Source: Microbotryum silenes-acaulis (Eukaryota; Basidiomycota; Microbotryomycetes; Microbotryales; Microbotryaceae). From it: a DNA stretch of 27,557 nucleotides. The notes below the pieces were generated by a model that was not told the DNA's origin, ran no database searches, and was given only the letters and a program-made list of their open reading frames with translations. The stretch is taken from positions 1 to 27,557 of the forward strand of contig QPFY01000057.1 of assembly GCA_003665825.1 (NCBI GenBank), in the 5' to 3' direction. A program made the translations under genes and the position numbers. Positions 1,859 to 27,358 of the stretch are shown here, in pieces (position 1 is the first letter of the stretch; each line of letters starts with the position of its first letter).

Positions 1859-1944
1859 TAGAGTTGATCGAATAGGTATGTTGAAATGATATTCATCACT
1901 CTTGGCTATAACTACATCGCTGACGTAGTAGAGTTGATCGAATA
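1619..1944 (+). repeat. A0 3' LTR (326 bp)
   Basis: It starts TGTGAGGAATCC after a G8 run (1611-1618) and ends TTGATCGAATA. It is 3 bp shorter than the 329-bp LTRs of A1 and A2 because the third copy of the internal 39-bp repeat lost one codon-length unit. It carries the duplicated tail: a 54-bp unit, the spacer GGTATGTTGAAATGAT (1875-1890), then the 54-bp unit again (1891-1944). Confidence 0.95.
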
Positions 1945-1969
1945 AAACCTTTTCGGCTTCCACTCAACA
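1945..1969 (+). repeat. B0: 3' terminal 25 bp of a family B LTR
   Basis: These 25 bases equal the end of the family B LTR (TTTTCGG, then ...CTCAACA). They show that A0 inserted into a B LTR that was itself inserted in C1. The A0 insertion point lies within the CCGAAA/TTTCGG hairpin near the B LTR end. GCTTG (1970-1974) should be the right target-site duplication of B0. Whether B0 is a solo LTR or a full element cannot be seen. Confidence 0.9.
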
Positions 1970-4178: not shown

Positions 4179-5331
4179 TGTTGAATTGCATTCTGTCAAG
4201 CCTTCGAACACTTCGACATCGGACCGCCGTTTGACGGACTTGCCCGCCTTTCGCCTCGGCCTCGCTCCGCGCGCCTTCGCCTCCGCAAGCCTCCCGCGCC
4301 CCCTGTCCCTCGAGCCTCGCTGCATGATCCTCGCACCCGGCCTCGTCCCTCGACCGATGTGCACCGCTCGTCAACTTGTCCACATCCCGGTCCGTCTGCC
4401 CGTCGTTGCCAGCTTTGCCTGCTCTGCCATGCTCGCCACCACGCGCCTTTGCCTCTTGGCACTTTCACCTCGGGCCTTTTTCGCCGCCGCGCGCCTTCGC
4501 AGCCAAGCCGCCCCCTTGTTCACCGCCCAGTTTTCGCCTCGGCGCCTCTTTCGCCGCCGCGCGCCTTCGCCTCGGCGCCTTCGCCCTCGCTGCCAAGCCG
4601 CCCCCCAGTCTTTCGCCTAGGCGCCTTCGCCTTCGCCGCCTTCGCCGCCCCCCCCTCCAGTCTTTCGCCTAGGCGCCTTCGCCTTCGCAGCCAAGCCGCC
4701 CCCTTGTCTCCGCCTCCGCGCCAGCCTGCTCAACTCACGCTCGCGCGCCGCCGCCTCCACGCCGGGGACTTAGTCAGTCCGCACTCTCCAGCCTAGCCGA
4801 GCCAACGCCTCCGCCTCGCCACAGCCAGTTTGCCACCGCCGACCTCATGACCCATCGGCCATGCAGAACATCGCCCACTCATGATGCCCGCGGTTCGCAC
4901 CTGAAGCCTGTCGTCAGGATCGCCTCACTCAACAACTCTGGATCGTGTAGATAAGTTTCCCCTCGTGTCCGTCGTCCAACACGACACCCCTCAGAGCCTC
5001 GATGGTCCACTTGGAGTTCGGTCTTGAAGCTTCGCATTGTGTTAGCCCAGTTTGTCTTAGCGCGGCCTTTGCTAAGAACCTCACCCGACTCGCGCGCCCT
5101 CGCGCCTCTCTTCCTCTTCTCTACCGCTTCCCAACATTAGCTAGACCGCTAATCTTCGTAGAGAACAGATCGTCCAGCCGCACCGTGTCCGTCTCGTCAG
5201 ACCGCGTCCGTGCCGCCTCACGACTTCTCCCCCCGGCCCGTCCGTCGCACACTGTAGCCACGTCGACGCTCCGCCAGTAGCCCAAGCGGTCGCTACTCCA
5301 AGTCCGAAACCTTTTCGGCTTCCACTCAACA
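4179..5331 (+). repeat. B1 solo LTR (1153 bp)
   Basis: A single family B LTR, TGTTGAATTGC...CTCAACA, flanked by the 5-bp duplication CCATC and with no internal region. It is therefore a solo LTR left by LTR-LTR recombination. It is longer than the B4 LTRs (991 bp) because it keeps a GC-rich minisatellite (about 4460-4700). It lacks the 65-66 bp intron-like duplication found in B2, B3 and B4: its single CTAATCTTC...AACAG unit ends at 5168 and runs straight into ATCGTCC. Confidence 0.95.
4460..4700 (+). repeat. GC-rich minisatellite inside B1
   Basis: Imperfect tandem and interspersed copies of units such as CGCCTCGGCGCCTTCGCC and TTCGCCTAGGCGCCTTCG, with recurring AGCCAAGCCGCCCCC blocks. The same array is present in B2 (7000-7090 and 12315-12450). 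It is missing from B4, whose LTRs jump from GGCGCCTTC straight to CCCGCGCCAGCC. It explains most of the LTR length difference. Confidence 0.8.
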
Positions 5332-5695: not shown

Positions 5696-6001
5696 TGTTG
5701 AATCGTATGTCTCGGAGGGGACTGGATCGGCAACCAGTGAGTACACGAGACACAGTACGAGTTGTGGGAAGTATATTGGAGCGTTAGGATTGCAACTGAC
5801 CTGGATCGGCAACCAGTGAGTACACGAGACACAGTACGAGTTGTGGGAAGTATATTGGAGCGTTAGGGAAAGACTATAAGAGGCGCGCAGTGCGAGTGCG
5901 CGAAATATCTCTAAGTCCAAAAGGGGTCCGGCGGGCGCGCGGCTGGCTAGGCTGGGCGCGGGTTGGAGATCGACCTAAGCAAGAGTGTATGGAATTCAAC
6001 A
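5696..6001 (-). repeat. C1 5' LTR (306 bp)
   Basis: Bounded by TGTTGAAT and ATTCAACA inverted ends. On the minus strand it runs from TGTTGAATTCC to CGATTCAACA and then the PBS. It contains a 67-bp tandem duplication (5722-5788 and 5801-5867) separated by 12 bases that read GTCAGTTGCAAT on the minus strand. The C2 LTR has only one copy of the unit. Confidence 0.93.
5722..5800 (-). repeat. Intron-like duplicated insert in the C1 LTR (79 bp)
   Basis: In element orientation the segment follows CCGATCCAG, starts GTCAGTTGCAAT and ends in a copy of the preceding 67 bp, again finishing CCGATCCAG. It contains CTAAC and CTCAC branch-point-like words. Removing it gives the organisation seen in the C2 LTR (13475-13682). 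The duplication is seen directly; intron behaviour is inference. Confidence 0.75.
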
Positions 6002-7090: not shown

Positions 7091-7419
7091 TGTGAGGAAT
7101 CCACTCTCCGCTCGGGTCAGGACTTAGGCGCGCGGAGCGAGCCGGGCGCATCGGCCCAGGACTTAGGCGCGCGGAGCGAGCCGGGCGCATCGGCCCAGGA
7201 CTTAGGCGCGCGCAGCGAGCCTGGCACATTGGCTCAGCCCCGAGGCTCGCTGGCTGAGGACTTGGGGCGCGCGGCTCCCTTACTGTTAGATTCCTATTCA
7301 TCACTCTTGGCTATAACTACATCGCTGACGTAGTAGAGTTGATCGAATAGGTATGTTGAAATGATATTCATCACTCTTGGCTATAACTACATCGCTGACG
7401 TAGTAGAGTTGATCGAATA
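7091..7419 (+). repeat. A1 5' LTR (329 bp)
   Basis: TGTGAGGAATCC...TTGATCGAATA with three 39-bp repeats and the duplicated 54-bp tail unit. It appears identical to the A1 3' LTR and to both A2 LTRs. Confidence 0.97.
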
Positions 7420-7431
7420 GGTTATAAGCCC
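7420..7431 (+). other. Primer-binding site of A1
   Basis: GGTTATAAGCCC directly follows the LTR. It differs from the family B and C PBS (GGTTATGAGCCC) only at the base facing the first anticodon position of the primer tRNA. Confidence 0.8.
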
Positions 7432-7513
7432 ACGAGCTACCAGCCCCGCCGCTTGAAATTTTTCCCTCGAGCCCAGCCACTCGAGCCGCCCCAGCCCATC
7501 GCACCATCGCAGC

Positions 7514-10500: not shown

Positions 10501-11990
10501 GATCCTCCGTACCACCGGGCGCCACTATCGTCACCTCCAAGTTCGTCTGGAAGACCAAACGCGACGCACGCGGCGAAGTCACGGGGCACAAGGCACGTCT
10601 CGTAGCGCAAGGTAACCGACAACGCGACGGCATCGACTTCTCGGAGACTTTCGCACCCGTCGCCCGGTTCTCCTCCATTCGCTGCCTCCTTGCCCTCGCC
10701 GCTGCCAATGGTTACCACGTTCATCAGGCCGACATCGACAAGGCTTACCTCCACGGCGAGCTCGATCACGATATCTGGATGACGACGCCACGAGGTTTCG
10801 ACTTCCCAAGTGATAAGATTCTCCGCCTGCGGCGCTCAATCTACGGTCTCAAGCAGGCCGGTCGCATCTGGAATCGCCACATTGACACATCACTCAGGAG
10901 TCTCGGGTACAAGGCAACGGGCACTGATCACTGCATTTACTCTCACATTGATGATCAGCAACGGCCCCATTATATCGCCTTGTATGTCGACGATCTCCTC
11001 ATTGTCAGCCCCGCCCTCGACGAGATCGAACGCGTCATCTCCGGCCTCGAACAACGATACGGCGTCAAACGACTCGGCCCCGCGGAATACATCCTCGGCA
11101 TCCAAATCCGCCGCCTGGACGACGGCTCCATTGCCCTATCCCAGGAACGCTACATCATGGACGTGCTCGCCCGGTTTCACTTCGACACCACGACACGCGG
11201 CGCTACGGTGCCAATGACGCCCGGCCTCTCGCTCACGGCAGTTCCGGGTCAAGGAACGGAGCGCATTCGATCGTGGTACCTACAAGCCATTGGCTCCCTC
11301 CTGTACATTTCCCTTGGCACTCGACCCGACATTGCCTTCGCCGTCTCGTACTTGTCCCGGTTCGCCAACAACCCTGGCCGCCGTCATTGGATTGCCGTCA
11401 AACACGTCCTTCGCTACCTTCGCGCCACGTACCGCGATGAGCTACTCTACGCCCGCGGTCCAGCCAAAGTTACGGGTGTGGTTGGGTATTCCGATGCGAA
11501 CTGGGGTGCCTGCGTCGACACGTCCATCTCCACAATGGGCTTCGTCTTTTACTTGGCCGGCTCCGCCGTCTCTTGGTCATCGAAGCGTCAGACTCGGGTG
11601 GCGGATTCCACCACTGATGCCGAATACCTCGCCTTGTCGCACGCTGGTAAGGAAGCGATTTACCTTACGCAACTCCTCTCCGAGCTCCACGTTCGCCCGA
11701 TCGATGCAGCTCACATCTTCACCGACAACGAGGCCGCGGCCGCCGTCGCTCACGACCCCGTTCGCACCTCCGGCACTCGACACATACGCCTCCGCGAGCA
11801 TTTTGTCCGCGACATGGTCAACCGAGGCGATATCTCCCTCTCACACGTTGGCACAGCGGACATGGTTGCGGACCTATTCACCAAAGCGCTGGGTCCCAAG
11901 ATTTTTGGTATACATTGCTATGCTCTAGGCCTCCGGACGCGGCACCCACGGCTCAAGTCTACCTCGCGTTCGCGTGGGGGGGGGGTGTGA
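7514..11990 (+). pseudogene. Copia gag-pol polyprotein with frameshifts (A1)
   Basis: The same protein as in A2: Gag with two CCHC knuckles, DSGA protease, D,D35E integrase, YVDD reverse transcriptase and RNase H. Against A2 the frame is broken by five one-base losses, all in homopolymers: C5 to C4 at 7524-7527, A3 to A2 at 7779-7780, C3 to C2 at 7786-7787, A4 to A3 at 8111-8113 and C4 to C3 at 9941-9943. The first three sum to one codon; the last two split the gene. I see no premature stop by substitution. This is what residual long-read errors look like, so the gene may be intact in the organism. With G10 at the polypurine tract the frame ends at 11990, right at the LTR start. Confidence 0.85.
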
Positions 11991-12314
11991 GGAATCCACT
12001 CTCCGCTCGGGTCAGGACTTAGGCGCGCGGAGCGAGCCGGGCGCATCGGCCCAGGACTTAGGCGCGCGGAGCGAGCCGGGCGCATCGGCCCAGGACTTAG
12101 GCGCGCGCAGCGAGCCTGGCACATTGGCTCAGCCCCGAGGCTCGCTGGCTGAGGACTTGGGGCGCGCGGCTCCCTTACTGTTAGATTCCTATTCATCACT
12201 CTTGGCTATAACTACATCGCTGACGTAGTAGAGTTGATCGAATAGGTATGTTGAAATGATATTCATCACTCTTGGCTATAACTACATCGCTGACGTAGTA
12301 GAGTTGATCGAATA
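11986..12314 (+). repeat. A1 3' LTR (329 bp)
   Basis: Follows the G10 run (11976-11985). It starts TGTGAGG and ends CGAATA, directly before the CGCCT duplication. It carries both tail units. Confidence 0.97.
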
Positions 12315-13148
12315 CGCCTCGGCGCCTTCGCCCTCGCTGCCAAGCCGCCCCCCAGTCTTTCGCCTAGGCGCCTTCGCCTTCGCCGCCTTCGCCGCCCCCC
12401 CCCTCCAGTCTTTCGCCTAGGCGCCTTCGCCTTCGCAGCCAAGCCGCCCCCTTGTCTCCGCCTCCGCGCCAGCCTGCTCAACTCACGCTCGCGCGCCGCC
12501 GCCTCCACGCCGGGACTTAGTCAGTCCGCACTCTCCAGCCTAGCCGAGCCAACGCCTCCGCCTCGCCACAGCCAGTTTGCCACCGCCGACCTCATGACCC
12601 ATCGGCCATGCAGAACATCGCCCACTCATGATGCCCGCGGTTCGCAACCTGAAGCCTGTCGTCACGGATCGCCTCACTCAACAACTCTGGATCGTGTAGA
12701 TAAGTTTCCCCTCGTGTCCGTCGTCCAACACGACACCCCTCAGAGCCTCGATGGTCCACTTGGAGTTCGGTCTTGAAGCTTCGCATTGTGTTAGCCCAGT
12801 TTGTCTTAGCGCGGCCCCTTGCTAGAACCTCACCCGACTCGCGCGCCCCTGTGCCTTTCTTCCTCTTCTCTACCGCTTCCCAACATTAGCTAGACCGCTA
12901 ATCTTCGGTAGAGAACAGGTTAGTTGCAATCACATCTACCGCTTCCCAACATTAGCTAGACCGCTAATCTTCGGTAGAGAACAGATCGTCCAGCCGCACC
13001 GTGTCCGTCTCGTCAGACCGCGTCCGTGCCGCCTCACGACTTCTCCCCCCGGCCCGTCCGTCGCACACTGTAGCCACGTCGACGCTCCGCCAGTAGCCCA
13101 AGCGGTCGCTACTCCCAAGTCCGAAACCTTTTCGGCTTCCACTCAACA
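12315..13148 (+). repeat. B2 solo LTR, right part
   Basis: Begins with the right CGCCT duplication and continues the B2 LTR through the minisatellite to CTCAACA. It contains the intron-like duplication at 12919-12984 (leader GTTAGTTGCAATCACATC plus a 48-bp copy) and the CCGAAA-CCT-TTTCGG hairpin just before its end. Confidence 0.95.
12919..12984 (+). repeat. Intron-like duplicated insert in B2 (66 bp)
   Basis: After AGAGAACAG comes GTTAGTTGCAATCACATC, then a second copy of the 48-bp unit 12871-12918, ending again in AACAG before ATCGTCC. Both copies carry the variant CTAGACCGC. A CTAAT branch-like word lies 15-20 bases before the final AG. B1 lacks the insert at the same site. Confidence 0.75.
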
Positions 13149-13474: not shown

Positions 13475-13682
13475 TGTTAATCGTATGTCTCGAGAGGGGA
13501 CTGGATCGGCAACCAGTAAGTACACGAGACAGAGTACGGGTTGTAAGGGAGTAGTTTGGAGCGTTAGGGGGAAGACTAAAGAGGCGCGCAGTGCGAGTGT
13601 GCGAAATATCTCTAAGTCCAAAGAGAGGTCCAAGCGGCGCGGATTGGAGATTGATCTAAGCAAGAGTGTATGGAATTCAACA
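13475..13682 (-). repeat. C2 5' LTR (208 bp)
   Basis: On the minus strand it runs from TGTTGAATTCC to GATTAACA. It has a single copy of the 67-bp unit that is doubled in C1, so it shows the insert-free state. It abuts the A5 gag sequence at 13683; AGATG (13683-13687) should be its right target-site duplication. The left end of C2 is off-window. Confidence 0.9.
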
Positions 13683-14205: not shown

Positions 14206-14217
14206 GGGCTTATAACC
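14206..14217 (-). other. Primer-binding site of A5
   Basis: GGTTATAAGCCC on the minus strand, next to the A5 LTR end; the same variant as in A1 and A2. Confidence 0.8.
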
Positions 14218-14424
14218 TATTTGATCAACTCTACTACGTCAGCGATGTAGTTATAGCCAAGAGTGATCAATCTCATTTCAACATACCTATTCGATCAACT
14301 CTACTACGTCAGCGATGTAGTTATAGCCAAGAGTGATGAATAGGAATCTAACAGTAAGGGAGCCGCGCGCCCCAAGTCCTCAGCCAGCGAGCCTCGGGGC
14401 TGAGCCAATGTGCCAGGCTCGCTG
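14218..14424 (-). repeat. A5 5' LTR, truncated by B3
   Basis: The last 207 bp of a family A LTR, with both tail units. The spacer reads GGTATGTTGAAATGAG (final G, where A0-A2 have T), and the LTR end reads GATCAAATA instead of GATCGAATA. It breaks at the third 39-bp repeat (CCAGGCTCGCTG), where B3 begins. CGCTG (14420-14424) should be the left TSD of B3. Confidence 0.92.
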
Positions 14425-14749
14425 TGTTGAATGTGGACTGTAGGGCTTATCGGAATTTGGCGTAGCGACCGCTAGGGCTACTAGTGGAGCGTCGACGTGG
14501 CAAGGATGCGACGGACGGTCGACAGGAGAAGTCGTGAGGCGGCACTGGCGCGGTCTGATGAGACGGACGCGGTGCGGCTGGACGATCTGTTCTCTACCGA
14601 AGATTAGCTGTCTGGCTAATGTTGGGAAGCGGTATGATGATTGCAACTAACCTGTTCTCTACCGAAGATTAGCTGTCTGGCTAATGTTGGGAAGCGGTAG
14701 AGAAGAGGAAGAAAGGCACAGGGGCGCGCGAGTCGGGTGAGGTTCTAGC
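14425..14749 (-). repeat. B3 LTR, left fragment (its 3' end)
   Basis: Reverse-strand family B LTR whose 3' end is at 14425 (reading ...CCACATTCAACA on the minus strand). It is a divergent subtype: the terminal hairpin of B4 is absent. It carries the doubled unit with both copies of the CCAGACAGC variant; the insert is 14587-14651. It is interrupted at CTAGC by B4 and resumes at 17323. Confidence 0.92.
14745..14749. repeat. Target-site duplication CTAGC, left copy of B4
   Basis: CTAGC precedes B4 and recurs at 17318-17322. The uninterrupted site, GCCCCTTGCTAGAACC, is in each B LTR (for example near 15410). Confidence 0.97.
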
Positions 14750-15511: not shown

Positions 15512-15576
15512 GTTAGTTGCAATCATCACACCGCTTCCCAACATTAGCTAGACCGCTAATCTTCGGTAGAGAACAG
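15512..15576 (+). repeat. Intron-like duplicated insert in the B4 5' LTR (65 bp)
   Basis: After GAGAACAG comes GTTAGTTGCAATCATCAC, then a 47-bp copy of the upstream unit, ending GAGAACAG before ATCGTCC. The first unit has CCAGACAGC and the second CTAGACCGC. The same insert is in the 3' LTR at 17090-17154. Confidence 0.75.
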
Positions 15577-15712
15577 ATCGTCCAGCCGCACCGTGTCCGT
15601 CTCGTCAGACTGCGTCCGTGCCGCCTCACGACTTCTCCCCCCGGCCCGTCCGTCGCACACTGTAGCCACGTCGACGCTCCGCCAGTAGCCCAAGCGGTCG
15701 CTACTCCCAAGT

Positions 15713-15727
15713 CCGAAACCTTTTCGG
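15713..15727 (+). other. Hairpin CCGAAA-CCT-TTTCGG near the B LTR end
   Basis: Perfect 6-bp stem with a 3-nt loop, 13 bases before the LTR end, extendable by AAG/CTT with a one-base bulge. It is also at 17290-17304 and in B1, B2 and (cut by A0) B0. It lies just upstream of the PBS, so it could fold in the RNA next to the primer site. B3 lacks it. Confidence 0.6.
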
Positions 15728-15740
15728 CTTCCACTCAACA

Positions 15741-15752
15741 GGTTATGAGCCC
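15741..15752 (+). other. Primer-binding site of B4, containing the ORF start codon
   Basis: GGTTATGAGCCC directly follows the LTR. It is complementary to the anticodon arm of initiator Met tRNA. The ATG at 15745-15747 pairs with the CAU anticodon and is also the first ATG of the 152-codon ORF. Confidence 0.85.
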
Positions 15753-16203
15753 TGTCCGAACCACCCTGCCCCTCCCCGCCGCACCCGCCGTCTCCGCCGA
15801 GCCAACGCCCGCCGAGACACGTGCCGCTGAGACACGCGACGCTGCCGCCGACGCAACCGCACCACACGCCGACAAAGCACACACGTCTGGTCCTGCCCCC
15901 GTCACCCCCACTCTCGCCGCCACCATGGACAAACGCATCGTAGGAACAAGCCTACAAGTCGATCGTCCGCCGAGAGCCCCACCCCGAGCCAAGCTGCCCG
16001 CCGCCGCCTCCCCTGCGCACAACCCTGCCGCAACACGCGACACCGCCGCCAACGCTTCGCAGACGCCGCCCCTCGCCGCTGCACCCGTTCCCCAACCCGT
16101 CTACACCATCCGAGCCACGATCATCGAAGAACGCATTACAAGAACACGCCTTCAACCCAATGGTCCGCCGAAAGCGCCAGCCCTAGGTATGTTCTCCGCC
16201 TAA
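15745..16203 (+). CDS. Small Pro/Ala-rich ORF of family B (152 aa), unknown function
   Basis: The only ORF filling the B4 interior. It starts at the ATG inside the PBS and stops at 16201-16203, about 125 bases before the 3' LTR. The protein is rich in Pro, Ala and Thr and has no cysteine, zinc knuckle, protease or RT motif. It holds a duplicated module: MDKRIVGTSLQVDRPPRAP (residues 61-79) aligns with IEERITRTRLQPNGPPKAP (127-145), with similar Ala/Thr/Pro lead-ins. The underlying DNA is also alignable, so this is an old internal duplication. The frame is open further upstream into the LTR (from 15517), so initiation there cannot be excluded. It could be a degenerate Gag-like or RNA-binding product; I do not recognise a family. 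Confidence 0.6.
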   Translation: MSPVRTTLPLPAAPAVSAEPTPAETRAAETRDAAADATAPHADKAHTSGPAPVTPTLAATMDKRIVGTSLQVDRPPRAPPRAKLPAAASPAHNPAATRDTAANASQTPPLAAAPVPQPVYTIRATIIEERITRTRLQPNGPPKAPALGMFSA

Positions 16204-16316
16204 CGCTCGTTGCCACGTCGCTTTGCACCCTCGCCTCGTCATGGTCTCCTACACCGGTCACTCGTCTATGCACACACCACTCGTCAACCCCTTCGTGCCC
16301 TTCTGGAAGTGTTCGA

Positions 16317-16327
16317 ACGAGGGGGGG
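16317..16327 (+). other. Polypurine tract of B4
   Basis: ACGAGGGGGGG directly before the 3' LTR start at 16328, the expected site for plus-strand priming. Confidence 0.8.
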
Positions 16328-17317
16328 TGTTGAATTGCATTCTGTCAAGCCTTCGAACACTTCGACATCGGACCGCCGTTTGACGGACTTGCCCGCCTTT
16401 CGCCTCGGCGCCTCGCTCCGCGCGCCTTCGCCTCCGCAAGCCTCCACCGCGCCCCCTGTCCCTCGAGCCTCGCTGCGTGATCATCGCACTCGGCCTCGTC
16501 CCTCGACCGATGTGCACCGTTCGTCAACTTGTCCACATCCCGGTCCGTCTGCCCGTCGTTGCCAGCTTTGCCTGCTCTGCCATGCTCGCCACCACGCGCC
16601 TTTGCCTCTTGGCACTTTCGCCTCGGCGCCTTCCCCGCGCCAGCCTGTTCAACTCACGCTCGCGCGCCGCCGCCTCCACATCGGAACTTAGTCGGTCTAC
16701 TTCTCCTGTCTTGCCAAGCCGTTGCCTCCGCCTAGCCACCGCCAGCTTGCCGCCACCGTCCTCATGTCTCATCGGCCATCCAGTGTATCGCCCATGCATG
16801 ACGCCCGTTGTTCGCAACCTGGATCTTGTTGCTACGGATTGCCCAGCTCACCAACACTCGACCAAGGTAGATAAGTTTCCCTTCGTGTACATCGTCCAAC
16901 ACGACACCCCTCAGAGCCTTGATGGTCCGCTTGGAGTTCGGTCTTGTAGCTTCGCATTGTGCTAGCCCAGTTTGTCTTAGCGCGGCCCCTTGCTAGAACC
17001 TCACCCGACTCGCGCGCCCCTGTGCCTTTCTTCCTCTTCTCTACCGCTTCCCAACATTAGCCAGACAGCTAATCTTCGGTAGAGAACAGGTTAGTTGCAA
17101 TCATCACACCGCTTCCCAACATTAGCTAGACCGCTAATCTTCGGTAGAGAACAGATCGTCCAGCCGCACCGTGTCCGTCTCGTCAGACTGCGTCCGTGCC
17201 GCCTCACGACTTCTCCCCCGGCCCGTCCGTCGCACACTGTAGCCACGTCGACGCTCCGCCAGTAGCCCAAGCGGTCGCTACTCCCAAGTCCGAAACCTTT
17301 TCGGCTTCCACTCAACA
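16328..17317 (+). repeat. B4 3' LTR (990 bp)
   Basis: Matches the 5' LTR except for one C fewer in the C-run near 17214. It ends CTCAACA, followed by the CTAGC duplication. Intron-like insert at 17090-17154; hairpin at 17290-17304. Confidence 0.96.
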
Positions 17318-17341
17318 CTAGCAAGGGGCCGCGCTAAGACA
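17318..17341 (-). repeat. B3 LTR, right fragment
   Basis: Starts with the right CTAGC duplication of B4 (17318-17322) and continues the B3 LTR (AAGGGGCCGCGCTAAGACA) until the A6 LTR end at 17342. AGACA (17337-17341) should be the left TSD of A6. Confidence 0.92.
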
Positions 17342-17507
17342 TATTCGATCAACTCTACTACGTCAGCGATGTAGTTATAGCCAAGAGTGATGAATCTCAT
17401 TTCAACATACCTATTCGATCAACTCTACTACGTCAGCGATGTAGTTATAGCCAAGAGTGATGAATAGGAAGCTAACAGTAAGGGAGCCGCGCGCCCCAAG
17501 TCCTCAG
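17342..17507 (-). repeat. A6 LTR fragment (166 bp)
   Basis: Reverse-strand end of a family A LTR with both tail units (spacer ending in G as in A5) and a private change (AAGCTAAC for AATCTAAC). It is cut at CCTCAG by the A2 5' LTR; CTCAG (17503-17507) should be the left TSD of A2. With the A2 5' LTR (17671-17836) it forms an inverted repeat of 166-bp arms around a 163-bp centre. Confidence 0.92.
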
Positions 17508-17836
17508 TGTGAGGAATCCACTCTCCGCTCGGGTCAGGACTTAGGCGCGCGGAGCGAGCCGGGCGCATCGGCCCAGGACTTAGGCGCGCGGAGCGAGCCG
17601 GGCGCATCGGCCCAGGACTTAGGCGCGCGCAGCGAGCCTGGCACATTGGCTCAGCCCCGAGGCTCGCTGGCTGAGGACTTGGGGCGCGCGGCTCCCTTAC
17701 TGTTAGATTCCTATTCATCACTCTTGGCTATAACTACATCGCTGACGTAGTAGAGTTGATCGAATAGGTATGTTGAAATGATATTCATCACTCTTGGCTA
17801 TAACTACATCGCTGACGTAGTAGAGTTGATCGAATA
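17508..17836 (+). repeat. A2 5' LTR (329 bp)
   Basis: TGTGAGGAATCC...TTGATCGAATA. It holds 39-bp repeats at 17535-17573, 17574-17612 and (diverged) 17613-17651, then the 54-bp tail units at 17713-17766 and 17783-17836 separated by GGTATGTTGAAATGAT. Each tail unit contains GGCTATAACTAC (TATA-like) and CTGACGTAG (a bZIP/CRE-like half site within a CTAC...GTAG hairpin). Confidence 0.97.
17535..17651 (+). repeat. 39-bp tandem repeats in the family A LTR
   Basis: Two perfect 39-bp units beginning CAGGACTTAGGCGCGCGGAG and a third diverged unit. In the 3' LTR the gag-pol frame reads them as the 13-residue repeat [13 protein letters not shown]. Confidence 0.9.
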
Positions 17837-17837
17837 G
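17768..17837 (+). repeat. Intron-like duplicated insert at the end of the family A LTR (70 bp)
   Basis: After CGAATAG comes GTATGTTGAAATGAT, then a perfect copy of the upstream 54 bp, ending CGAATAG. The 5' hexamer GTATGT is a common fungal 5' splice site, CTGAC lies about 22-26 bases before the end, and the segment ends TAG. Removing it gives the 259-bp single-unit LTR seen in A3. The last G is the first PBS base. Confidence 0.75.
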
Positions 17838-17848
17838 GTTATAAGCCC
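17837..17848 (+). other. Primer-binding site of A2
   Basis: GGTTATAAGCCC adjoining the LTR; the primer is probably a half-tRNA cut in the anticodon loop. Confidence 0.85.
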
Positions 17849-17930
17849 ACGAGCTACCAGCCCCGCCGCTTGAAATTTTTCCCTCGAGCCCAGCCACTCG
17901 AGCCGCCCCAGCCCATCGCACCATCGCAGC
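17849..17930 (+). other. A2 leader between PBS and gag start
   Basis: 82 bases with no coding sequence. It contains paired CTCGAG words (CCCTCGAGCCC and CACTCGAGCC) that could form a small stem, a possible packaging or dimerisation element. The first ATG after the LTR is the gag start at 17931. Confidence 0.4.
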
Positions 17931-20900
17931 ATGGACAGCTCCCCCGCCCCGCCTTCGCCCCCCAGGGACATCAGCTCCCCTGACCCTTCGATCAGCGTGC
18001 AAATCGCCACGCTACAGGCACAGCTTGCCGCTCTACAGGCCTCACAGCCCCCTGCCGCCGCCGCCGCCTCCCCGCCCGTCACTGCCACGCAGGCAAACAC
18101 CGCCACCGCATCAAAAGTCGTGTTCCCCAAGCACGCTCGCCTTGACGGCCCTAAGTCGTTTACAAACTGGTTACGTCAACTCCGTCTCGCGCTTCCAAAT
18201 CAAGCCCGTGGTTACGTTCTTGACGGTGTCATTCCCCCGACGTGGACGGCCGACCAGCTTGCCGCCCGTGACGACGCCGCGCGTGAAATCATCGTTGGCT
18301 CGATCGACTCAGCCGACGTCTCAGCCACCCTCGACACCATCCCCAGCGACGACCTGTCGGCACCACGCATCTTCGCCGCACTCAAGGCTCGTTTCGCACC
18401 GGACGACGCCACTCGTACCCTCGAGTTGTTCGCCCGCCTTTGGGACTTCAGGAAGATGCCTGCCTCCGTCGAGGCGTACGACACGTGGCTCCGTGAATAC
18501 ATGTCGATCGCGCAGGAAATCCGCGACGCCAAAACCTCGCTCAACGACGTGCTCGCCACTCACGTGCTCGCCATGGTCCCACCCTGCCTCGACAGCTTCC
18601 GACTCACGTTCACGGACGAGCAGCGCAACCAACGCGACCTCCCGGAACTCACGACGCTGACGGATCGCATTCGCATCCAGCTTCGCTCGGCGGGACTCTC
18701 GTCATCGCACTCGGCCATGCTCGCCACCGCCTCCCCTTGTCCCGCCTGCCGCGCCCCCGGCCACCGTCTGCGCGACTGCACCTCACGGGCGACACACCCG
18801 CCCGCCGGCCCCTGCCGCCGCTGCCACAAGAAAGGTCACTGGGCCCTCGACTGCAAGCACCGGGGCGAACAGAAACACACCGGCGACGACAACCAGGACG
18901 ACACGTCTCTCCCCGCCGCTCAACAGCCTAACATCGGCTATTTCGCCTCCTGCCTGTTCGCTCGCCGGCAACTCCCGACTGACGCCTTTGTAGTCGACTC
19001 GGGCGCCACGGCACACATGGTCGCCGATCGCTCTCTATTCACGGCTTATCGCCAGACGGCGCACACCAAGATCGGCGGCATCGCCGGCGGTATCACGGCC
19101 ATTGGTATGGGGGACGTAGCGTTCGTTGCCAAGACCGGACATCCGATCACGCTGCGTGGCGTTCTGCACACGCCGGGCCTCCACGTCAACCTCCTCTCTG
19201 TTTCTCGCCTCTGCGACACCGACCGCGTTCGACTCGCCTTCACCAGCGACGGCATCGACATCGCCAAGGACGGCCAGGCCATTGCTCACGGTACCAGGGT
19301 TAACGACGGTCTCTACCTTTTGGACGCGGATCACACCAAGTGTCAGCAGCTTGCCCTTCTCTCGCGTTCTGAGTCTACCGTGCCCCTGCTTACCCTTCAC
19401 CGCTGCCTCGGCCATCTTGCCCCATCCTCTATACAGAAGATGATCGCCGCAGGTTTGCTGGACGGGTTTGGGGCCGGGTACAGTGACAAAGACGTAGAGG
19501 AGTTTGTTTGCAATGCTTGCCTTGGTTCCAAAGGCCACCGTCTTCCTTTTCCCGACTCTGAGTCGCATTCCCCCGAGAGACTCGGCCTCGTGCACAGCGA
19601 TGTCCTTTCGTTCCCCACTCCGTCCTTGACCGGGAAGCGCTACCTTGTCACATTTCTTGACGACCACTCTCGCAAACTCTGGGCATACGCGATCGATCAC
19701 AAAAGCGACGTCTTCCCGACCTTCCAGACTTGGCTCGCCGAAGTGGAGTTAGAGACGAACGCGCGTTTAAAAACCCTTCGCACTGACAACGGCGGGGAGT
19801 ACCGATCGAACGCATTCACGGAGTTCTGCAAGTCCAGGGGCATTCGTCGTCAATACTCTATCCCCTACACACCTCAGCAAAACGGTCGTGCCGAACGTGT
19901 CAATCTCTCCATTGTCGAGGGCATCCTCGCCCTCCTTGCTGACTCCCATCTGCCGGCCACCTTTTGGGATGAAGCGGCTGCGTACTTCGTTTATTGCAAA
20001 AACAGGTGCTCACACTCAGCTTTGGCCAAACAGACTCCAGAATCCGTTTGGAACGGCCGACGCACCACCACCACCGCCCTCCACCCGTTCGGCTGCGCGG
20101 CCTGGCTCACGGTCGCGCCGGACCTTCGCAGCAAGCTCGACCCCAAGGCCGCGCGCGTGATCTTCACCGGTTACGACCTCGCCTCCAAGGCTTTCCGTTT
20201 CTTCGACCATTATACCAACAAGGTTGTGATTGGCCGAAATGCCACCTTCCTCGACGACGACTTCCCCGGCCTCCCAATCAACACGCCCGTCGATGTGGAC
20301 AACACCGAACGCCAGTTCGTCATTCCCGCCGACACGCCCGCCCCCGCCGTCAAGACGAGGACCCCACTAGTAAGGTCGGCGCACATGGACGTCTCATCCT
20401 CTCTTGATGATTCTGCCATGAGCGCCGTTGACGTGGCCCCAGGGTACACTGGCGGATCCTTACTTAATTCTACAGATATCAGCCCCTCGCCGTCCCCGTC
20501 GCTTGTCCCGCTTTCGTCGCCCGCCACGTCCTCGGCCGGAGGACCGTCCCTCGATGACTCGGACGACCCGCTTGACCTCCTCAACTCCAACACCGCGGTT
20601 CGCCTCAACCTGATGGACGTACATCGATCCGACGACGACACCCTGGTGACGCCCGCACCCGCCATTGCCCCCGCTGAACAGCCCTCCGATGACGACTCCC
20701 CTGATGAGATCGATTTCCTCTCTCGCCACCACCGCGCCTTCATCGCCACAGACGACGACGACCCCACCCTCGACGCCATCGAGCCCGTCAAGTCGATTAC
20801 TAGCGATCCTCAGACCTGGCGCGAAGCAATGTCCAGCGACGAGCACGACATCTGGGCTCAGGCTGCCGCCGCCGAGTTCACCGCCATGCGCGACGACTTC

Positions 20901-22649
20901 AAGGTGTTCACCATCGAGCCTCGATCCTCCGTACCACCGGGCGCCACTATCGTCACCTCCAAGTTCGTCTGGAAGACCAAACGCGACGCACGCGGCGAAG
21001 TCACGGGGCACAAGGCACGTCTCGTAGCGCAAGGTAACCGACAACGCGACGGCATCGACTTCTCGGAGACTTTCGCACCCGTCGCCCGGTTCTCCTCCAT
21101 TCGCTGCCTCCTTGCCCTCGCCGCTGCCAATGGTTACCACGTTCATCAGGCCGACATCGACAAGGCTTACCTCCACGGCGAGCTCGATCACGATATCTGG
21201 ATGACGACGCCACGAGGTTTCGACTTCCCAAGTGATAAGATTCTCCGCCTGCGGCGCTCAATCTACGGTCTCAAGCAGGCCGGTCGCATCTGGAATCGCC
21301 ACATTGACACATCACTCAGGAGTCTCGGGTACAAGGCAACGGGCACTGATCACTGCATTTACTCTCACATTGATGATCAGCAACGGCCCCATTATATCGC
21401 CTTGTATGTCGACGATCTCCTCATTGTCAGCCCCGCCCTCGACGAGATCGAACGCGTCATCTCCGGCCTCGAACAACGATACGGCGTCAAACGACTCGGC
21501 CCCGCGGAATACATCCTCGGCATCCAAATCCGCCGCCTGGACGACGGCTCCATTGCCCTATCCCAGGAACGCTACATCATGGACGTGCTCGCCCGGTTTC
21601 ACTTCGACACCACGACACGCGGCGCTACGGTGCCAATGACGCCCGGCCTCTCGCTCACGGCAGTTCCGGGTCAAGGAACGGAGCGCATTCGATCGTGGTA
21701 CCTACAAGCCATTGGCTCCCTCCTGTACATTTCCCTTGGCACTCGACCCGACATTGCCTTCGCCGTCTCGTACTTGTCCCGGTTCGCCAACAACCCTGGC
21801 CGCCGTCATTGGATTGCCGTCAAACACGTCCTTCGCTACCTTCGCGCCACGTACCGCGATGAGCTACTCTACGCCCGCGGTCCAGCCAAAGTTACGGGTG
21901 TGGTTGGGTATTCCGATGCGAACTGGGGTGCCTGCGTCGACACGTCCATCTCCACAATGGGCTTCGTCTTTTACTTGGCCGGCTCCGCCGTCTCTTGGTC
22001 ATCGAAGCGTCAGACTCGGGTGGCGGATTCCACCACTGATGCCGAATACCTCGCCTTGTCGCACGCTGGTAAGGAAGCGATTTACCTTACGCAACTCCTC
22101 TCCGAGCTCCACGTTCGCCCGATCGATGCAGCTCACATCTTCACCGACAACGAGGCCGCGGCCGCCGTCGCTCACGACCCCGTTCGCACCTCCGGCACTC
22201 GACACATACGCCTCCGCGAGCATTTTGTCCGCGACATGGTCAACCGAGGCGATATCTCCCTCTCACACGTTGGCACAGCGGACATGGTTGCGGACCTATT
22301 CACCAAAGCGCTGGGTCCCAAGATTTTTGGTATACATTGCTATGCTCTAGGCCTCCGGACGCGGCACCCACGGCTCAAGTCTACCTCGCGTTCGCGTGGG
22401 GGGGGGTGTGAGGAATCCACTCTCCGCTCGGGTCAGGACTTAGGCGCGCGGAGCGAGCCGGGCGCATCGGCCCAGGACTTAGGCGCGCGGAGCGAGCCGG
22501 GCGCATCGGCCCAGGACTTAGGCGCGCGCAGCGAGCCTGGCACATTGGCTCAGCCCCGAGGCTCGCTGGCTGAGGACTTGGGGCGCGCGGCTCCCTTACT
22601 GTTAGATTCCTATTCATCACTCTTGGCTATAACTACATCGCTGACGTAG
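17931..22649 (+). CDS. Copia gag-pol polyprotein, intact (A2)
   Basis: One 1572-residue ORF encoding all functions for retrotransposition in virus-like particles. Gag occupies about 1-310, with a copia gag core ([15 protein letters not shown] near 70-85) and two CX2CX4HX4C knuckles (270-283 and 295-308). The protease active site is D356-S-G-A. The integrase zinc region is H490, H495, C527, C530; the catalytic residues are D557 (HSDV), D619 (RTDNGGEY) and E655 (NGRAER), an exact D,D35E spacing. An acidic Ser/Pro linker follows. RT: D1075 in [11 protein letters not shown] and D1161/D1162 in YVDD. RNase H: D1329, E1372, D1406. There is no frameshift between gag and pol. Residue 1493 onward is encoded by the 3' LTR and consists of 13-residue repeats; the real end depends on the G-run length. 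The start is the first ATG after the PBS. Confidence 0.97.
22398..22406 (+). other. Polypurine tract of A2 (G9)
   Basis: Run of nine G directly before the 3' LTR. The run is G8 in A0, G10 in A1 and G8 in A3, which changes the reading frame across the LTR boundary. Confidence 0.85.
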
Positions 22650-22735
22650 TAGAGTTGATCGAATAGGTATGTTGAAATGATATTCATCACTCTTGGCTAT
22701 AACTACATCGCTGACGTAGTAGAGTTGATCGAATA
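22407..22735 (+). repeat. A2 3' LTR (329 bp)
   Basis: Looks identical to the 5' LTR; both tail units are present. It is followed directly by TCACAGCCC, which is interior gag sequence of A3. Confidence 0.97.
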
Positions 22736-25700
22736 TCACAGCCCCCTGCCGCCGCCGCCGCCTCCCCGCCCGTCACTGCCACGCAGGCAAACACCGCCAC
22801 CGCATCAAAAGTCGTGTTCCCCAAGCACGCTCGCCTTGACGGCCCTAAGTCGTTTACAAACTGGTTACGTCAACTCCGTCTCGCGCTTCCAAATCAAGCC
22901 CGTGGTTACGTTCTTGACGGTGTCATTCCCCCGACGTGGACGGCCGACCAGCTTGCCGCCCGTGACGACGCCGCGCGTGAAATCATCGTTGGCTCGATCG
23001 ACTCAGCCGACGTCTCAGCCACCCTCGACACCATCCCCAGCGACGACCTGTCGGCACCACGCATCTTCGCCGCACTCAAGGCTCGTTTCGCACCGGACGA
23101 CGCCACTCGTACCCTCGAGTTGTTCGCCCGCCTTTGGGACTTCAGGAAGATGCCTGCCTCCGTCGAGGCGTACGACACGTGGCTCCGTGAATACATGTCG
23201 ATCGCGCAGGAAATCCGCGACGCCAAAACCTCGCTCAACGACGTGCTCGCCACTCACGTGCTCGCCATGGTCCCACCCTGCCTCGACAGCTTCCGACTCA
23301 CGTTCACGGACGAGCAGCGCAACCAACGCGACCTCCCGGAACTCACGACGCTGACGGATCGCATTCGCATCCAGCTTCGCTCGGCGGGACTCTCGTCATC
23401 GCACTCGGCCATGCTCGCCACCGCCTCCCCTTGTCCCGCCTGCCGCGCCCCCAGCCACCGTCTGCGCGACTGCACCTCACGGGCGACACACCCGCCCGCC
23501 GGCCCCTGCCGCCGCTGCCACAAGAAAGGTCACTGGGCCCTCGACTGCAAGCACCGGGGCGAACAGAAACACACCGGCGACGACAACCAGGACGACACGT
23601 CTCTCCCCGCCGCTCAACAGCCTAACATCGGCTATTTCGCCTCCTGCCTGTTCGCTCGCCGGCAACTCCCGACTGACGCCTTTGTAGTCGACTCGGGCGC
23701 CACGGCACACATGGTCGCCGATCGCTCTCTATTCACGGCTTATCGCCAGACGGCGCACACCAAGATCGGCGGCATCGCCGGCGGTATCACGGCCATTGGT
23801 ATGGGGGACGTAGCGTTCGTTGCCAAGACCGGACATCCGATCACGCTGCGTGGCGTTCTGCACACGCCGGGCCTCCACGTCAACCTCCTCTCTGTTTCTC
23901 GCCTCTGCGACACCGACCGCGTTCGACTCGCCTTCACCAGCGACGGCATCGACATCGCCAAGGACGGCCAGGCCATTGCTCACGGTACCAGGGTTAACGA
24001 CGGTCTCTACCTTTTGGACGCGGATCACACCAAGTGTCAGCAGCTTGCCCTTCTCTCGCGTTCTGAGTCTACCGTGCCCCTGCTTACCCTTCACCGCTGC
24101 CTCGGCCATCTTGCCCCATCCTCTATACAGAAGATGATCGCCGCAGGTTTGCTGGACGGGTTTGGGGCCGGGTACAGTGACAAAGACGTAGAGGAGTTTG
24201 TTTGCAATGCTTGCCTTGGTTCCAAAGGCCACCGTCTTCCTTTTCCCGACTCTGAGTCGCATTCCCCCGAGAGACTCGGCCTCGTGCACAGCGATGTCCT
24301 TTCGTTCCCCACTCCGTCCTTGACCGGGAAGCGCTACCTTGTCACATTTCTTGACGACCACTCTCGCAAACTCTGGGCATACGCGATCGATCACAAAAGC
24401 GACGTCTTCCCGACCTTCCAGACTTGGCTCGCCGAAGTGGAGTTAGAGACGAACGCGCGTTTAAAAACCCTTCGCACTGACAACGGCGGGGAGTACCGAT
24501 CGAACGCATTCACGGAGTTCTGCAAGTCCAGGGGCATTCGTCGTCAATACTCTATCCCCTACACACCTCAGCAAAACGGTCGTGCCGAACGTGTCAATCT
24601 CTCCATTGTCGAGGGCATCCTCGCCCTCCTTGCTGACTCCCATCTGCCGGCCACCTTTTGGGATGAAGCGGCTGCGTACTTCGTTTATTGCAAAAACAGG
24701 TGCTCACACTCAGCTTTGGCCAAACAGACTCCAGAATCCGTTTGGAACGGCCGACGCACCACCACCACCGCCCTCCACCCGTTCGGCTGCGCGGCCTGGC
24801 TCACGGTCGCGCCGGACCTTCGCAGCAAGCTCGACCCCAAGGCCGCGCGCGTGATCTTCACCGGTTACGACCTCGCCTCCAAGGCTTTCCGTTTCTTCGA
24901 CCATTATACCAACAAGGTTGTGATTGGCCGAAATGCCACCTTCCTCGACGACGACTTCCCCGGCCTCCCAATCAACACGCCCGTCGATGTGGACAACACC
25001 GAACGCCAGTTCGTCATTCCCGCCGACACGCCCGCCCCCGCCGTCAAGACGAGGACCCCACTAGTAAGGTCGGCGCACATGGACGTCTCATCCTCTCTTG
25101 ATGATTCTGCCATGAGCGCCGTTGACGTGGCCCCAGGGTACACTGGCGGATCCTTACTTAATTCTACAGATATCAGCCCCTCGCCGTCCCCGTCGCTTGT
25201 CCCGCTTTCGTCGCCCGCCACGTCCTCGGCCGGAGGACCGTCCCTCGATGACTCGGACGACCCGCTTGACCTCCTCAACTCCAACACCGCGGTTCGCCTC
25301 AACCTGATGGACGTACATCGATCCGACGACGACACCCTGGTGACGCCCGCACCCGCCATTGCCCCCGCTGAACAGCCCTCCGATGACGACTCCCCTGATG
25401 AGATCGATTTCCTCTCTCGCCACCACCGCGCCTTCATCGCCACAGACGACGACGACCCCACCCTCGACGCCATCGAGCCCGTCAAGTCGATTACTAGCGA
25501 TCCTCAGACCTGGCGCGAAGCAATGTCCAGCGACGAGCACGACATCTGGGCTCAGGCTGCCGCCGCCGAGTTCACCGCCATGCGCGACGACTTCAAGGTG
25601 TTCACCATCGAGCCTCGATCCTCCGTACCACCGGGCGCCACTATCGTCACCTCCAAGTTCGTCTGGAAGACCAAACGCGACGCACGCGGCGAAGTCACGG

Positions 25701-27136
25701 GGCACAAGGCACGTCTCGTAGCGCAAGGTAACCGACAACGCGACGGCATCGACTTCTCGGAGACTTTCGCACCCGTCGCCCGGTTCTCCTCCATTCGCTG
25801 CCTCCTTGCCCTCGCCGCTGCCAATGGTTACCACGTTCATCAGGCCGACATCGACAAGGCTTACCTCCACGGCGAGCTCGATCACGATATCTGGATGACG
25901 ACGCCACGAGGTTTCGACTTCCCAAGTGATAAGATTCTCCGCCTGCGGCGCTCAATCTACGGTCTCAAGCAGGCCGGTCGCATCTGGAATCGCCACATTG
26001 ACACATCACTCAGGAGTCTCGGGTACAAGGCAACGGGCACTGATCACTGCATTTACTCTCACATTGATGATCAGCAACGGCCCCATTATATCGCCTTGTA
26101 TGTCGACGATCTCCTCATTGTCAGCCCCGCCCTCGACGAGATCGAACGCGTCATCTCCGGCCTCGAACAACGATACGGCGTCAAACGACTCGGCCCCGCG
26201 GAATACATCCTCGGCATCCAAATCCGCCGCCTGGACGACGGCTCCATTGCCCTATCCCAGGAACGCTACATCATGGACGTGCTCGCCCGGTTTCACTTCG
26301 ACACCACGACACGCGGCGCTACGGTGCCAATGACGCCCGGCCTCTCGCTCACGGCAGTTCCGGGTCAAGGAACGGAGCGCATTCGATCGTGGTACCTACA
26401 AGCCATTGGCTCCCTCCTGTACATTTCCCTTGGCACTCGACCCGACATTGCCTTCGCCGTCTCGTACTTGTCCCGGTTCGCCAACAACCCTGGCCGCCGT
26501 CATTGGATTGCCGTCAAACACGTCCTTCGCTACCTTCGCGCCACGTACCGCGATGAGCTACTCTACGCCCGCGGTCCAGCCAAAGTTACGGGTGTGGTTG
26601 GGTATTCCGATGCGAACTGGGGTGCCTGCGTCGACACGTCCATCTCCACAATGGGCTTCGTCTTTTACTTGGCCGGCTCCGCCGTCTCTTGGTCATCGAA
26701 GCGTCAGACTCGGGTGGCGGATTCCACCACTGATGCCGAATACCTCGCCTTGTCGCACGCTGGTAAGGAAGCGATTTACCTTACGCAACTCCTCTCCGAG
26801 CTCCACGTTCGCCCGATCGATGCAGCTCACATCTTCACCGACAACGAGGCCGCGGCCGCCGTCGCTCACGACCCCGTTCGCACCTCCGGCACTCGACACA
26901 TACGCCTCCGCGAGCATTTTGTCCGCGACATGGTCAACCGAGGCGATATCTCCCTCTCACACGTTGGCACAGCGGACATGGTTGCGGACCTATTCACCAA
27001 AGCGCTGGGTCCCAAGATTTTTGGTGTACATTGCTATGCTCTAGGCCTCCGGACGCGGCACCCACGGCTCAAGTCTACCTCGCGTTCGCGTGGGGGGGGT
27101 GTGAGGAATCCACTCTCCGCTCGGGTCAGGACTTAG
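22736..27136 (+). CDS. Copia gag-pol polyprotein, N-terminally truncated (A3)
   Basis: Open from 22736 with no frameshift, equivalent to A2 residues 38-1492; it has no ATG of its own at the right place. All domains are present: two CCHC knuckles, DSGA protease, D,D35E integrase, YVDD RT and RNase H. Two substitutions against A2 are visible. Gly277 to Ser in the first knuckle ([14 protein letters not shown], codon at 23453) hits the conserved Gly before the zinc-binding His. Ile to Val (FGVHCY) lies near the C-terminus. With a G8 run the frame enters the LTR in another register and stops at 27136 after the residues [11 protein letters not shown]. Without a 5' end it should not be expressed from its own promoter. 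Confidence 0.93.
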
Positions 27137-27358
27137 GCGCGCGGAGCGAGCCGGGCGCATCGGCCCAGGACTTAGGCGCGCGGAGCGAGCCGGGCGCATC
27201 GGCCCAGGACTTAGGCGCGCGCAGCGAGCCTGGCACATTGGCTCAGCCCCGAGGCTCGCTGGCTGAGGACTTGGGGCGCGCGGCTCCCTTACTGTTAGAT
27301 TCCTATTCATCACTCTTGGCTATAACTACATCGCTGACGTAGTAGAGTTGATCGAATA
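27100..27358 (+). repeat. A3 3' LTR, short form (259 bp)
   Basis: Same as the A2 LTR but with a single 54-bp tail unit (27305-27358). Exactly the 70-bp intron-like segment is missing. It ends CGAATA at the junction with A4; CGAGG (27359-27363) should be the right TSD. Confidence 0.94.

Follow-up and report, generated by a model that had tools for sequence, protein, structure and literature searches.

In the part of the literature cited here from excerpts, the closest described systems are retroelements that are spliced and introns that arise by duplication or insertion. A retroelement intron lying in the leader should vanish once spliced RNA is copied back, and in the Ty1 test of 1985 an intron-bearing RNA gave intron-free new copies, the intron having been placed there by the experimenters (excerpt of PMC12786077). 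In BARE1, a splice junction just behind gag yields a Gag-only RNA (excerpt of PMC3735527), and in EVADE a Gag-only RNA results from splicing that removes the protease domain (excerpt of PMC12786077). Foamy virus is described as having a splice donor in its LTR, with U1 binding suppressing early polyadenylation (excerpt of PMC3694450). Among modes of intron gain, tandem genomic duplication leaves an intron between the original and the duplicated AGGT (excerpt of PMC3443670), introners insert into many genes (excerpt of PMC9860276), and direct repeats of 4-30 bp (mean 11.4) near the borders of 213 of 213 introns have been read as insertion traces (excerpt of PMC11782384).

Here we describe a short unit within the LTRs of retrotransposons from the basidiomycete fungus Microbotryum silenes-acaulis. 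The unit looks like a small intron, and its 3' part is a copy of the sequence that would be the upstream exon. As in BARE1, EVADE and Ogre, there would be spliced and unspliced forms of the retrotransposon RNA; unlike BARE1 and EVADE as the excerpts describe them, insert-free copies exist and the unit lies inside the LTR. The putative donor is within the LTR, as in foamy virus. Foamy virus acceptors lie outside the LTR, and we know of no exon copy in the foamy virus LTR. Set against the Ty1 test, the present case may be an equivalent from nature, in which a repeat could allow the intron to come back. As in the excerpted account of tandem genomic duplication, a duplicated exon would become an intron, with the exon end giving splice signals and the mature RNA unchanged. 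In contrast to that account, the donor here is supplied by a leader of 9-39 nt, the copies stay identical and the carrier is an LTR; the two AGGT sites that mark a tandem-duplication intron are absent, there being no leader copy at the upstream exon. The border repeats cited above also place sequence from near the 5' border near the 3' border, but the repeat here takes in 34-68 bp on the upstream exon side. Like introners, the unit is an intron-like mobile-element sequence in many copies; unlike introners as excerpted, it is confined to a single LTR site and moves along with its element. Among the titles and abstract openings searched, we found no intron lying wholly inside an LTR together with an exon copy, which is a statement about those sources and not a claim of absence from print.

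Architecture of the unit

The genome searched comprises 29.85 Mb in 88 contigs; the window is a stretch of 27,557 nucleotides, the entire contig C57 (QPFY01000057.1). A host chaperonin, CCT4, shares 94% identity with its counterparts in Microbotryomycetes sp. JL221 and Glaciozyma antarctica, which places the host in or near Microbotryomycetes. We call the upstream copy X1, the leader L, the second copy X' and the rest up to the LTR end D. In nine LTR families (A-I), segment X is followed by a unit of 65-80 bp, consisting of leader and X', and then by D, with 34-68 bp repeated through the last base of the unit. Unit lengths are 70 (A), 65 (B), 79 (C; 80 in a second lineage), 69 (D), 71 (E), 73 (F), 72 (G), 78 (H) and 78 (I), and the leaders of A to I measure 14, 18, 12, 14, 9, 39, 24, 31 and 21 nt, respectively. 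The phenomenon is wider than first described: the initial annotation had reported units in three families, which we call A, B and C, and families D and E were absent from its listing. The positions it gave for units of A (17768-17837), B (15512-15576, 12919-12984 and 14587-14651) and C (5722-5800) were borne out, as were its insert-free copies of A (with X at 27314), B and C (Table 1). Beyond that listing, the window holds A units starting at 1876, 7351, 12246 and 22667 on the plus strand and at 14217 and 17341 on the minus strand, and a B unit at 17090.

Table 1. Positions in the window of features belonging to families A, B and C
Feature	Position	Strand	Remarks
Family A 5' LTR, 329 bp with unit	17508..17836	+	Starts TGTGAGGAATCC at 17508; ends AATA before GGTTATAAGCCC
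Family A X1, upstream copy	17712..17767	+	Ends AATAG; CTGAC 22 nt before AG
Family A unit, proposed 70-nt intron	17768..17837	+	Leader GTATGTTGAAATGA, then X'
Presumed primer-binding site	17837..17860	+	GGTTATAAGCCCACGAGCTACCAG, directly behind the A LTR
Family A ORF	17931..22649	+	Integrase and RVT_2 pieces match Pfam
Family A unit in next LTR	22667..22736	+	4899 bp on; last base not G
Family A unit, 5' LTR of element 7091-12314	7351..7420	+	TSD CGCCT
Family A unit, matching 3' LTR of element 7091-12314	12246..12315	+	
Family A unit within an LTR	1876..1945	+	
Family A unit	14217..14286	-	
Family A unit	17341..17410	-	
Family A LTR without unit (n=0)	27100..27358	+	Informative columns as in the majority of unit-bearing LTRs
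Family B unit, 65 nt	15512..15576	+	X1 = CCAGACAG, X' = CTAGACCG
Family B unit, second LTR of the element with the 15512 unit	17090..17154	+	TSD CTAGC
Family B unit, 66 nt	12919..12984	+	X = X' = CTAGACCG
Family B unit, 65 nt	14587..14651	-	X = X' = CCAGACAG
Family B X without unit (n=0)	5124..5168	+	
Family C unit, 79 nt	5722..5800	-	X = X'
Family C X without unit (n=0)	13501..13567	-	

It had also been claimed that every unit ends in AG. In family A this AG is complete only where a G follows, which the primer-binding site supplies; for the unit at 17768 the final base of the LTR and the initial base of that site together form the AG, and of 24 unit-bearing A LTR ends that no primer-binding site follows, 15 have a base other than G in that position. 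The site itself presumably corresponds to a tRNA 5' half.

Splice-like signals

In all nine families, each represented by one copy, the sense strand reads [CT]AG/GTNNG[TC]...[CT]AG/, where slashes mark the unit borders. As for a U2-type intron, the representatives have GT and AG in 9/9 cases, a CTNAY word in 8/9 (family G is without one) and lengths of 65-79 nt. Where present, this word stands 15-30 nt upstream of the final AG, and for A-E the product of the shuffle frequencies of finding it in place is 0.0047. Differences between lineages within CTNAC fall on the N only, both in C (CTCAC/CTTAC) and in E (CTTAC/CTAAC), and a further intron-like segment of E, which has a diverged middle, again varies on N only (CTCAC/CTTAC).

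Host introns at chaperonin loci are ~66-98 nt long with comparable signals, and host donors from these loci and from L031 are mostly of the GTNNGT kind, often with CTNAY words. With a matrix built from 18 host donors (scoring 5.9-9.8), a set assembled in part by visual reading and in part with a position-5 filter, the donors of A, B, C, D and E score 7.0, 5.6, 7.6, 3.6 and 7.7; those of D and B thus score below all 18 host donors. The earlier impression of a small fungal intron finds support in that the unit resembles a host spliceosomal intron, that its absence is exact and that it would be neutral if spliced.

Less in keeping with an intron, A and D have other AGs 3-10 nt after CTNAY, closer than the final AG. 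The two bases after the unit are GT only in A and D, and the leader is not repeated beside X1. The fold z-score of X lies below that of the unit in all of A-E (B, -5.4 vs -0.6; E, -5.1 vs -1.3), and in those two families the leader stands where the X hairpin would have its left arm. Pyrimidines are abundant in the 12 nt before X (mean 0.81 vs 0.61 in parts of five LTRs), and X starts as Y/A in 4/9 families (p ~0.012 at an assumed 0.11). Both features agree, weakly, with a transcription start there; because Y/A occurs in only four of nine, a cap position at the start of X is a guess.

Families, copy numbers and element type

Families A-E came from a repeat scan that had no GT or AG requirement, whereas F-I were picked out visually from sequences in which AG/GT had been marked and are therefore less independent. 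The same scan also returned tandem repeats that are not intron-shaped, for example in the U3 of family A. An X-segment search of the window, C1:545001-655000 and C2:1-60000 gave 48 LTR ends for A (40 with one unit, 1 with two, 7 with none), 15 for B (10 with one, 5 with none), 8 for C (2 with one, 6 with none), 5 for D (2 with one, 3 with none) and 7 for E (2 with one, 3 with two, 2 with three), so that unit numbers from 0 to 3 coexist among copies.

LTR ends are followed by GGTTAT[AG]AGCC as a primer-binding site. The sites, which read GGTTATAAGCC or GGTTATGAGCC (17837-17860; LTR ends of L059-L110), would suit half-tRNA priming by two tRNAs in related families. A tRNA origin was considered for primer-binding-site matches on arms and rejected, since no tRNA was found in L089 or L090, which look like LTR ends instead; recognising them as such led to families F-I. 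Of 20 windows upstream of primer-binding-site-like matches, 8 had a unit (L069, L070, L071, L076 and L078 in C; L072, L074 and L075 in E), as did 9 of 20 further such windows (L092, L095, L096, L097, L100 and L102 in F; L103 in G; L109 in H; L110 in I). Unit-free counterparts are L091, L098, L099, L101 and L108 (F), L104 (H) and L105 (I), and L093, L106 and L107 have no unit and were not classed to a family. These windows were hand-picked among 100 places listed of 117, so the counts are not frequencies.

Family E has an extra intron-like segment between X1 and the first unit in 6/7 copies of one set and in L074. It reads GTGAGC...CTCAC or CTTAC...CTTGAGCAG (L036:4025-4092), and its middle differs between two lineages while both ends are kept. 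The segment is missing in L033, L072 and L075, and L061 has neither segment nor unit.

Families A, C (L047) and E (L036) are Ty1/copia elements, with rve and SH3_retrovirus followed by RVT_2 in Pfam matches, and their reverse transcriptase pieces are 56-61% identical. The view that three unrelated families were involved therefore needs qualifying, since coding pieces of A, C and also E match the copia reverse transcriptase family RVT_2 and the LTRs of A and D resemble each other. A piece near D (L042:7502-8866) also matches RVT_2 but is 89% like A and may therefore be A-type; the internal piece of B had no Pfam match. We confirmed no relatives in viral_contigs, and three contigs in prokaryote bins match at 34-42% identity.

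Exact presence and absence of the unit

In family A, 14 candidate LTR pairs lie ~4.8-5.0 kb apart, 11 of them with a 5-bp TSD. Among the TSD pairs, the unit is in both LTRs of 10 and in neither LTR of 1 (C2:29-34 kb, TTCTT). Of the three pairs without a TSD, two have the unit in both LTRs, including the element at 17508, whose LTRs differ at 0 of 329 positions, and one has 0 and 1. Three of four B pairs have TSDs, namely GGACA (unit in both), GAACA (in neither) and CTAGC (in both; in the window).

The presence of the unit changes without other change. B LTRs with and without it are identical over 927 bp outside the 65-bp unit. In family C, L067 and L077 (no unit) show 0 differences over 190 bp from L069, L070, L071 and L076 (one unit); L078 has 142 differences, taken as a length shift, and L059, L060, L063, L065 and L066 belong to other lineages, with 24-78 differences counted position by position on sequences not realigned. 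Each of three A haplotypes was found both with and without the unit. The change is thus exact and repeated, and it arises at or before the stage that makes both LTRs from one template.

Concerted evolution of X and X'

If X' were an old duplicate evolving alone, its divergence from X within an element would be expected to be at least that between lineages. We observed zero differences between X and X' in 32/41 comparisons for A, 7/10 for B, 6/7 for C, 1/2 for D and 9/11 for E, having left out one A row without X1 and 7/18 E units that stand behind the other segment. Haplotypes of C differ in 3 places, or in 7-8 places and a 1-nt gap, those of D in four places, and those of E in CTTACCACTG, CTTACCACCG and CTAACCACCG. 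In 3/10 B copies, X1 is CCAGACAG and X' is CTAGACCG, and these copies look like hybrids. The A leader GGTATGTTGAAATGA shows 0 changes in 41 units, and the next ten sites show 16 changes at three sites. For ONSEN elements, the first strand switch has been called a hot spot at which RNAs recombine (excerpt of PMC12786077), and template switching would homogenise X and X'.

A separate observation concerns L094 (C3:1580617-1580807), a recombinant LTR end in which two F copies are joined. Here a leader end, X', D and a GGTTATAAG site stand behind another copy's X, D, GGTTATGAG site and internal leader. Judged from its letters, this arrangement reads like a natural template-switch product.

Candidate products of splicing at another AG

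Splicing at another AG after the branch site, followed by reverse transcription, would leave an LTR that reads X1 and then the tail of X' past that AG. We looked for A tails after three AGs and for the B tail after the first AG. CGAATAG/AGTTGATCGAATA occurs at 2 places in A, 4912 bp apart, and GAGAACAG/AGAACAG/ATC occurs at 5 places in B. With 0-30 nt allowed between exact flanks, we found no joints in A or B beyond the same 2 + 5 places; diverged joints would escape a search that demands exact flanks. Both A cases stand behind a full unit. Of the B cases, L084-L086 are alike and unit-free, L082 shares ATCGCCC and carries a unit ahead of its tail, and L083 has ATCGTCC and a differing upstream end. 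Given these contexts, we count roughly one independent event in A and either one or two in B. Tandem duplication of 7 bp and of 14 bp between AG dinucleotides could also leave the same letters, and since such duplications yield an identical result, we regard these sequences as support for splicing and not as proof. We found no alternative-AG product in family E, where the nearer AG is GAG, and the first intron-like segment of E was joined straight to D at 0/52 places.

The shared leader

The sharing of a leader is not random. Allowing at most one mismatch, the window has 12 occurrences of GTNWGTTGMAAT where 0.77 would be expected (0/100 shuffles reached 12), and genome-wide the 15-letter GTNWGTTGMAATSAT is found at 246 + 209 places, compared with 10 + 2 for a reversed control. 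The initial annotation had described the leader as a fixed 12-nt sequence. Families A-D have roughly that form, but across the nine families the leader spans 9-39 nt, and what recurs is [ACT]TG[ACG]AAT (NTGVAAT), present in 8/9 leaders at position 6 in A-D, 25 in F, 10 in G, 21 in H and 11 in I. At position 6, the motif is found in only 1/18 host donors (L031).

The LTRs of A-E are mostly dissimilar, and A and D are detectably alike. The best match between B and C LTRs, 16 bp (E 0.011), is by its coordinates the leader with the preceding CAG, and the C-D match stems from C sequence lying ahead of D in the slice. By eye, a CTTAGCTTCCT-like sequence before X1 is common to A, D and F, and CTTCCTCTTCT is common to B and H. 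Inspection by eye of the sequence upstream of X1, the LTR start, D and the primer-binding site gave no convincing match as a source of the leader. U1 binding that guards against early polyadenylation is one idea for what the leader may do.

It had been asked whether the pattern occurs in host genes. At both non-LTR leader matches that were read, L031 and L032, the duplication is absent. Judged by these two places, a host-gene introner family is not supported, as L031 is an ordinary-looking first intron, L032 is coding on the other strand, and the two have nothing further in common than short, chance-like matches. L031 1621-1641 (-) and L032 1484-1504 (+) share 20/21 leader-like letters; they are unrelated places in the host, and we judged this to be chance.

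Proposed mechanism and alternatives

Our main reading, to which we give a probability of about 0.68, is that these copia-type retrotransposons carry the unit as a small spliceosomal intron of their 5' leader, inside the LTR, and that splicing and template switching both act on it. It builds on what is directly observed, namely the architecture, the exact presence and absence, the concordant TSD pairs and the concerted X and X'. The RNA would run from its 5' end through X1, the intron (GT leader, X' and AG) and D to the primer-binding site, with X', as a second copy of X1, supplying the branch-site-like CTNAY and the 3' AG. Splicing would join X1 to D, giving the same RNA as an insert-free element, and reverse transcription of this RNA would yield a new element whose two LTRs both lack the unit; elements of this form exist among the TSD pairs. 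Since X1 and X' are the same sequence, reverse transcription that has passed D and X can continue on X1 or on X' of another RNA. Such a template switch, suggested by unit numbers of 0-3 and by the concerted evolution, could remove, restore or multiply the unit and rewrite X' from X1. With less to support it, X might comprise the entire 5'-terminal exon between cap and donor and serve as the R region for first-strand transfer. The leader with its NTGVAAT would be old, inherited and under some constraint.

The unit might instead be an unspliced tandem repeat of a regulatory or structural LTR segment plus a spacer, with slippage during reverse transcription giving 0-3 copies and the splice-like words owed to chance or another use. 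Unit numbers of 0-2 in A and 0-3 in E would suit this, as would the other tandem repeats of the A LTR (39-bp steps in U3) and the strong X hairpins of B and E (z -5.4 and -5.1), which possibly have a conserved function; moreover, direct repeats produce exact loss, so slippage between them without splicing predicts the observed loss equally well. Yet GT comes first, G stands at +5 and AG is at both ends in 9/9 families, CTNAC varies at N alone, the rare-variant joints fall at AG only, and the U3 repeats have no intron shape, and we therefore consider the tandem-repeat account unlikely. It appears highly improbable that the unit number changes in the DNA of already inserted elements, whether recombination or gene conversion were to act between LTRs or between elements: the elements do form dense nested blocks with many identical LTRs, and one candidate pair has 0 and 1 units (C2- 20288/15498), but 14 TSD pairs (11 A, 3 B) are concordant, and the discordant pair, having no TSD and differing LTR haplotypes, is probably not one element.

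A different alternative concerns origin and is compatible with a present-day intron. The initial annotation had proposed that upstream exons are copied repeatedly behind a fixed leader into unrelated sequence; in a form of this idea, cDNA would run off at the cap and land in the leader of another RNA, with independent gains in many families. Nine families are involved, most of A-E without detectable LTR likeness (F-I lay outside the program comparison), X and X' are alike within elements, the 12 nt before X are pyrimidine-rich, and L094 ends in leader. The identity of X and X' nevertheless says nothing on age, given their concerted evolution; NTGVAAT recurs in eight of nine leaders although it lies outside the donor, and at position 6 it marks a single one of the 18 host donors; the flanks, by eye, link A-D-F and B-H; and we met no element with a freshly gained leader. 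The alike flanks, the copia nature of A, C and E and the joint evolution of X and X' speak against repeated copying into unrelated sequence, and an old cassette with homogenisation requires fewer assumptions. Common descent would therefore explain the shared leader better than new gain, which we hold to be distinctly unlikely and which is not needed to explain the data.

To return to the spliceosomal intron, the cassette is real, widespread and intron-shaped, it is probably spliced, and it is most likely homogenised by reverse transcription. A more tentative extension, possible but on balance doubtful, is that the intron is proof against reverse transcription: minus-strand strong-stop cDNA of a spliced RNA would transfer onto X' of an unspliced RNA, restoring the intron and rewriting X', so that exon-intron identity would be a survival device, and second and third units would reflect transfers onto X' and not onto the 3' R. 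A reverse-transcription route that restores an intron would be new to our knowledge. If the main reading is true, the nine LTR families hold a natural record of splicing and template switching, a natural counterpart of the classic test that detects retrotransposition by intron loss, and a route, open to testing, for a copied exon to turn into an intron and remain one.

Genomic setting of the elements

Family B elements have only ~590 bp between their LTRs (window 15741-16327), and a B ORF at 15517-16203, which begins within the unit, has no Pfam match; the family is probably non-autonomous. Family A LTR lengths step by 39 bp (290, 329 and 368 bp), even within one TSD element (C1:551523 and 556461), and L043 has a 57-bp tandem duplication at ~1720-1840, within the A coding region. 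Among those listed, the A and B leader matches cluster densely, with roughly one block to each large contig, a pattern that centromeres could show (C1:551-650 kb, C2:1-58 kb, C5:1602-1655 kb, C7:1531-1598 kb and others), and the F windows are scattered elsewhere.
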